Source: Catenulispora sp. (GTDB lineage: Bacteria > Actinomycetota > Actinomycetes > Streptomycetales > Catenulisporaceae). Taken from it: a stretch of DNA of 37,117 nt. Numbering within the stretch: the stretch's first letter is position 1; every line of letters starts with the position of its first letter. The stretch is from positions 1-37,117 of the forward strand of contig JABFXP010000845.1 of NCBI GenBank assembly GCA_013361685.1, written 5' to 3'. Under the pieces are notes generated by a model, which saw nothing but the letters and a program-made list of their open reading frames with translations, searched no databases and was not told the DNA's origin. Made by a program: the position numbers and the translations under genes. This document shows, piece after piece, positions 2,161-3,348 of this stretch.

Positions 2161-2176
2161 GGTGATCTCGATCACA
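2161..2176. promoter_or_regulatory. CRP/FNR-family-like operator
   Basis: GGTGATCTCGATCACA matches the CRP-family pattern TGTGA-N6-TCACA at 9 of 10 defined bases, and bases 2162-2175 are a perfect GTGATC/GATCAC inverted repeat. It lies about 195 bp upstream of the lipoprotein start and 255 bp upstream of nuoA, so it could act on either. Three further TGATC pentamers lie just before it (2128, 2145, 2152). The match to known family consensus is clear; function is inferred. Confidence 0.5.
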
Positions 2177-2238
2177 ATTGCCTGCCCCCCTGTGGCACAG
2201 CGCACACTCCACAGGCGTAGGATCAGCCCGAAAGATGG

Positions 2239-2337
2239 CACCGAGCGTCCGTGGCGATCATGGTCGCGCTTGTGAAACCGTTCACTGGCACCGTGGGTTC
2301 ACCAGCGGGACACCGAGCGTCGCGGAAGCTTGTGAAA
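2239..2337. repeat. Imperfect duplication in the nuoA leader
   Basis: CACCGAGCGTC occurs at 2239-2249 and again at 2311-2321 (72 bp apart). GCTTGTGAAA occurs at 2268-2277 and again at 2328-2337 (60 bp apart). The unequal distances suggest an old tandem duplication followed by a 12-bp indel. It carries both Rex-like operators. Confidence 0.65.
2270..2287. promoter_or_regulatory. Rex-like operator 1 upstream of nuoA
   Basis: TTGTGAAACCGTTCACTG matches the actinobacterial Rex operator TTGTGAA-N4-TTCACAA at 12 of 14 defined bases, with a perfect left half. Rex is the NADH/NAD+-sensing repressor known to control nuo in Streptomyces. The target and the regulation here are inferred. It lies about 145 bp before the nuoA ATG. 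Confidence 0.72.
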
Positions 2338-2347
2338 TCAGCCACAA
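2330..2347. promoter_or_regulatory. Rex-like operator 2 upstream of nuoA
   Basis: TTGTGAAATCAGCCACAA matches TTGTGAA-N4-TTCACAA at 12 of 14 defined bases. The left half is perfect and the right half ends in CACAA. It begins exactly 60 bp after operator 1, and its mismatches fall at different positions of the right half. It is 83 bp before nuoA. The sequence match is direct; Rex binding is inferred. Confidence 0.7.
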
Positions 2348-2378
2348 GTAGCGTGAGCAGGGCCCACCCGTCCTGAAA

Positions 2379-2793: not shown

Positions 2794-3348
2794 ATGGGCC
2801 TGGAAGAGAAACTCCCCGCGGGGTTCCTGCTCACCACCGTCGAGGGCCTGGCGGGCTACATGCGCAAGTCGTCGGTGTGGCCGGCGACCTTCGGTCTGGC
2901 CTGCTGCGCCATCGAGATGATGGCCACCGGCGCCGGCCGGTATGACCTGGCGCGCTTCGGCATGGAGCGGTTCTCCGCCACGCCCCGCCAGGCGGACCTG
3001 ATGATCGTGGCCGGCCGGGTGAGCCAGAAGATGGCCCCGGTGCTGCGCCAGGTCTACGACCAGATGGCGAACCCCAAGTGGGTCATCGCGATGGGCGTGT
3101 GCGCCTCCAGCGGCGGCATGTTCAACAACTACGCGATCGTGCAGGGCGTGGACCACATCGTCCCGGTCGACATCTACCTGCCCGGCTGCCCGCCGCGTCC
3201 GGAGATGCTCCTGGACGCGATCCTGAAGCTGCACGAGCAGATCCAGAACATGCCGCTGGGCGTGAACCGCAAGAAGGCGGCGGAGGAGGCCGAGAAGGCC
3301 GCCATGAACGCCAAGCCGACCATCCTGATGGAAGGGCTCCTCCGGTGA
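2794..3348 (+). CDS. nuoB: NADH-quinone oxidoreductase subunit B
   Basis: A 184-residue peripheral subunit that binds the terminal 4Fe-4S cluster N2, which reduces menaquinone. The four ligands are visible: tandem Cys37-Cys38 ([10 protein letters not shown]), Cys103 (GVCASSGG) and Cys132 (LPGCPPRPE). The region [22 protein letters not shown] is typical of the family and contributes to the quinone pocket with NuoD. The C-terminal tail of about 30 residues is charged and probably disordered. The gene starts 3 bp after nuoA and overlaps nuoC by 4 bp (GTGA). Confidence 0.97.

Follow-up and report, generated by a model that had tools for sequence, protein, structure and literature searches.

The nuoA leader and its neighborhood

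The DNA that we analyzed, a stretch of 37,117 nucleotides referred to here as the window, belongs to the 9.5-Mb genome (G000) of a Catenulispora, a soil actinomycete. It carries nuoA, encoding NADH-quinone oxidoreductase subunit A, at 2431 to 2790 of the forward strand (NCBIfam NF005922, 2e-66), followed on the same strand by nuoB, the next gene of the nuo operon, at 2794 to 3348 (NF005012, 1.1e-73). The placement of two Rex-like sites in a nuoA leader, proposed in an earlier note on this sequence, is thereby confirmed, since NuoA and NuoB are encoded directly downstream of them. On its upstream side, the leader is bordered by a divergently oriented gene that is lipoprotein-like and has no Pfam match.

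A simple scan of the leader returned neither a sigma-70 promoter nor a terminator. There is, however, a conserved -10-like element, TAGGAT, at 2218 to 2223 of the forward strand, which in 77 of 80 named relatives, Streptomycetaceae with few exceptions, ends 14 to 16 nt before the nuoA Rex operator (ROP). If TAGGAT serves as the -10 element, transcription would start near position 2230. A TTGACC-N18-TACAGA pair located just upstream of nuoA (approximately 2380 to 2409) was considered and rejected: it is not kept, about 20 nt being absent in all members of the genus but G003.

Two Rex-type sites in the leader

Two 18-mers in the leader resemble the operator of Rex, an NADH-sensing repressor. Site 1, TTGTGAAACCGTTCACTG, occupies positions 2270 to 2287 and site 2, TTGTGAAATCAGCCACAA, positions 2330 to 2347, both given for the forward strand. 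Each agrees with the consensus TTGTGAA-N4-TTCACAA (TTGTGAANNNNTTCACAA) at 12 of the 14 defined bases, i.e., with two mismatches, and the starts of the two are separated by exactly 60 bp, just as the earlier note had described. Beyond these two candidate operators, no match to the consensus with three or fewer mismatches exists in the window. Two sites at this threshold were not obtained in any of 100 shuffles of the whole window. When the intergenic region alone (1972 to 2430) was shuffled with its dinucleotides preserved, 13 of 20,000 sequences contained one or more sites at up to two mismatches, and none of them contained a pair. The sites were also scored with a Rex matrix trained on the rex, atpI, wblE, and cydA sites, from which nuoA sites were left out to avoid circularity. 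They rank first and second across the window, site 1 at 19.9 bits and site 2 at 13.1 bits; the two common forms of the Streptomyces nuoA ROP reach 12.5 bits (TTGTGACCTGCTTCACAT) and 16.1 bits with the same matrix.

The imperfect duplication in which the earlier note had placed both sites proved weaker than claimed. An exact 11-mer, CACCGAGCGTC, is found on the forward strand at 2239 to 2249 and again at 2311 to 2321, but the offset between its copies is 72 bp versus 60 bp for the operators, so that a duplication would require an indel of 12 nt. Moreover, the likeness of the two halves outside the operators was equaled by 95 of 5000 shuffled pairs (about 2%).

Conservation differs between the two sites

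A lack of conservation of both sites in close relatives would, according to the earlier note, refute its proposal, and on this point the nuoA leaders speak in favor of the proposal. Site 2 is present in all ten Catenulispora genomes, the single variation being one spacer base in one genome, and 17 of its 18 columns are invariant versus 28 of the 42 columns between the sites. It lies 106 to 108 nt from TAGGAT throughout the genus. Its right arm reads GCCACAA in all ten genomes, and the departure of site 2 from the consensus is thus genus-wide. Leaders from the sister genus contain a ROP with one mismatch (13 of 14) that shares the GCTTGTGAA start with site 2, and in the sister-genus genomes G012 and G013 a single downstream ROP is located 106 to 107 nt after TAGGAT.

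Site 1, on the other hand, is not conserved across the genus. An intact palindrome occurs in three of the ten genomes, G000, G003, and G006, which the nuoAB tree groups as a single clade (support, 0.957) and which have the identical 60-bp spacing; the remaining seven keep GTGAAACCG, the left part of site 1, without the right half. The tandem pair reported in the earlier note is hence real in the window's genome but local, as site 1 is palindromic in a single three-genome clade. Among the 80 named relatives, 79 have a single site when up to three mismatches are allowed, and G011, another member of the family, has its ROP 42 nt after TAGGAT, near the place of site 1. These differing distances imply that the position of the operator has moved in evolution and that the pair is a feature at the level of a clade. 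Literature searches on several Rex sites in one promoter yielded nothing usable.

The persistence of the left half of site 1 where the palindrome has been lost may be accounted for by pairing in the transcript. Positions 2248 to 2327 of the forward strand form an imperfect inverted repeat with the potential for a long RNA hairpin, with the left half of site 1 in one arm and GGTTCAC (2296 to 2302) in the other. Conceivably, site 1 belongs to a structured RNA leader covering this stretch and is no operator, which would leave site 2 as the sole Rex site. Both arms, GTGAAACCG and GGTTCAC, are kept in 10 of 10 genomes, and variation is seen in the right half of site 1, which would fall in the loop. 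Across the ten genomes 98 to 99% of the cells are paired, although the structure was derived from the same ten sequences in which pairing was assessed. In three pairs both partners have changed, and 12 of 500 shuffles gave at least as many such pairs; one of the three, however, accounting for 3 cells, traces back to a single split in the tree. The folding z score of -4.8 for G003 is set against values between -1.3 and -2.6 for the nine remaining genomes and between -0.5 and -1.3 for sister-genus leaders, which thus show no excess structure. The nuoA leader has no match to an Rfam leader or riboswitch, and site 1 outscores site 2 on the Rex matrix. On balance, we regard an RNA-only role of site 1 as unlikely, while the hairpin is a suggestive explanation for the persistence of the left half. 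That the same stretch of leader acts both as a DNA operator and as a genus-specific RNA hairpin, tuning complex I at two levels, appears to us a decidedly improbable combination. Site 2 and its flanks (2328 to 2349, forward strand) could form a hairpin as well, through GCTTGTG and CACAAGT, but this structure is uninformative because its pairs never vary. Site 2 is followed by a short conserved frame (GTG AGC AGG GCC CAC...), for which inspection by eye revealed no clear ribosome site.

A rex gene and a Streptomyces-type set of Rex sites

The lack of a rex gene, which would have spoken against Rex control according to the earlier note, does not apply. The window's genome has a single copy of rex (NF003992, 8.9e-113), and the encoded protein carries, both over the cutoff, the Pfam domains PF06971 (N-terminal DNA binding) and PF02629 (Rossmann type, NAD(H)) and aligns to solved Rex structures (e.g., 3ikv at 2.5e-46). 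The gene immediately precedes hemA and is itself preceded by a ROP (G000:C310:1838). Of the relatives, 30 yielded a rex gene, and the rex promoter of each contains a ROP. Further ROPs in the window's genome, differing from the consensus at no more than two bases, are located before a wblE-like WhiB-family gene and before the ATP synthase operon (atpI); in S. avermitilis, wblE and atpI are Rex targets (PMC5355995). Hence, the Rex sites of this genome make up a Streptomyces-type set that includes nuoA. A further Rex target of S. avermitilis is cydA (PMC5355995), and at 12 cydA loci of the genus (L185 to L196) no Rex-like site with three or fewer mismatches occurs within the DNA fetched.

The ROP of S. 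avermitilis nuoA1-N1, TTGTGACCTGCTTCACAT, has been footprinted with Rex (PMC5355995). The window resembles this system in operon, regulator family, and consensus, and in the Streptomyces leaders analyzed here the site is likewise downstream of the same TAGGAT. Taken together, the rex gene, the ROPs at rex, wblE, and atpI, the footprinted Streptomyces nuoA ROP, and the retention of site 2 in ten of ten genomes speak for the Rex control of nuo that the earlier note had suggested, and we consider this predicted control of nuoA well supported at the level of sequence.

A possible Crp-type regulator and the upstream GTG-N8-CAC pair

It might be argued that sites 1 and 2 bind a regulator of the CRP/FNR type (TGTGA-N6-TCACA) instead of Rex. 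Each of them matches the CRP core at 9 of 10 positions, though the CRP consensus is nested inside that of Rex; a Crp-like gene is present, and two further motifs of the form GTG-N8-CAC are found upstream of TAGGAT. Yet the Rex-specific bases beyond the CRP core are mostly kept: both sites have the outer T and the inner A, site 2 has the outer A, and site 1 has the inner T. In addition, the counterpart site in Streptomyces is the one footprinted with Rex (PMC5355995), the sister-genus sites agree with the Rex consensus at 13 of 14 positions, and the upstream motifs score only 7.9 and -8.5 bits on the Rex matrix, indicating that the CRP-like and the Rex sites are separate classes. We therefore give little credence to CRP-type binding at sites 1 and 2 and continue to read them as candidate Rex operators.

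Of the upstream motifs, the proximal, CRP-like one (2192 to 2205, forward strand) starts 26 nt before TAGGAT, compared with 27 nt in Streptomyces, and the distal one, GTGATCTCGATCAC (2162 to 2175, forward strand), which has one mismatch to the CRP and four to the Rex consensus, starts 56 nt before it, compared with 60 nt in Streptomyces. Of 88 leaders of relatives, 83 have the proximal start at 27 nt and 77 the distal one at 60 nt (26 and 56 nt in Catenulispora). With these near-fixed distances the pair is better conserved than the Rex pair, and sister genera have an extra copy 103 nt before TAGGAT. In a search of five genomes with the proximal motif as it reads in Streptomyces, set at its distance from the -10-like element, every exact match (in three genomes) fell at nuo, and the matches with one mismatch comprised one in G012 at nuo and two elsewhere; the Catenulispora genome G004 has no match to this Streptomyces form. 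The Crp-like protein is a candidate for binding the pair, and literature searches on whether Crp is linked to the nuoA promoter of Streptomyces gave nothing usable. In the sister genus, the leaders L011, L013, L018, and L019 have a second site far upstream of the ROP, approximately 320 to 350 nt before nuoA (e.g., TTGTGACGGCCATCACAA). Such sites correspond perfectly or nearly so to the CRP consensus and have two mismatches to that of Rex.

A possible mode of repression

Considering the above, both 18-mers are probably Rex operators in the nuo leader, site 2 being genus-wide and site 1 an extra operator in a three-species clade. From sequence and analogy we infer the following course for binding, repression, start position, roadblock mode, and the effect of site 1. 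At a low NADH/NAD+ ratio, Rex dimers would occupy both sites downstream of the TAGGAT promoter, at about +41 (site 1) and +101 (site 2) if TAGGAT is the -10 element, and block RNA polymerase. Upon a rise in NADH, Rex would be released and nuo transcribed. Site 1 most likely would add repression or binding probability without looping.

Three Rex-controlled regions of S. avermitilis are instructive for this scheme. At wblE, the footprint extends from +108 to +135, and hindrance of the progress of RNA polymerase has been proposed by the authors (PMC5355995). As in the window, with its presumed start, the operator is located well downstream of the start, making it probable by analogy that Rex acts as a downstream roadblock on nuo as well, but wblE combines a full site with a half-site, whereas the window has two full sites 60 bp apart. 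The cydA1 region also consists of a full ROP and a half-site (PMC5355995) and resembles the window in having more than one Rex-contacting element per promoter, as predicted here; unlike the pair in the window, however, both elements are inside one 28-nt footprint with a single full palindrome. At nuoA, finally, the single site of Streptomyces follows TAGGAT at a distance of 15 nt in most leaders, whereas the window has two, at 46 and 106 nt. The footprint at S. avermitilis nuoA1 spans -42 to -16, i.e., the start is downstream of the ROP (PMC5355995), which disagrees with TAGGAT as the -10 element. If that start position holds here, the two sites would lie in the core promoter or upstream of it.

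The earlier note had also suggested that the pair allows cooperative binding or DNA looping by two Rex dimers and thereby a graded response to NADH, an idea for which we find no support. It is true that both sites are good and that their 60-bp spacing is exact in each genome that has site 1. At 10.5 bp per turn, however, 60 bp amounts to 5.7 helical turns, which is short for looping and puts the sites out of phase, on different faces of the helix, disfavoring both looping and same-face cooperativity. Furthermore, the known form of Rex is a dimer, and the pair is absent from the seven other members of the genus. Looping between sites 1 and 2 is thus unlikely, and a cooperative or looped arrangement with a graded response seems to us very improbable.

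Catenulispora nuoA is accordingly best read as a Rex target of the usual kind, the second operator being a minor peculiarity of one clade. By inference, Rex control of complex I, known from Streptomyces, would thus extend to Catenulispora. The leaders also point to operator turnover, in which nuoA would still be a Rex target while the ROP varies in position, being about 15 nt past the -10-like element in some leaders and about 106 nt past it in others. The second site in one clade and the shifted positions together offer a natural series in which the position and number of operators may be related to the strength of redox repression.

Other Rex-like sites

Outside the nuo leader, a Rex-like sequence with one mismatch, TTGTGAACGCCTTGACAA, is found in the window's genome just 5' of a TerC-family gene (G000:C334:18987; L081, 2488 to 2505), which is possibly a further Rex target. 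Another, ATGTGAAGCCGATCACAA, lies between divergent genes for an AFG1-like ATPase and a RibD_C protein (G000:C883:10719; L089, 2220 to 2237; also in L094) and is kept in G004. A Rex-like palindrome is also located before a TetR-like gene that, by eye, is divergent to an MMPL-like gene (L082, 1933 to 1950, and L090, 2181 to 2198; TTGTGCAAGCTTTCACAA in L090); this palindrome is more likely the own operator of the TetR-like regulator.
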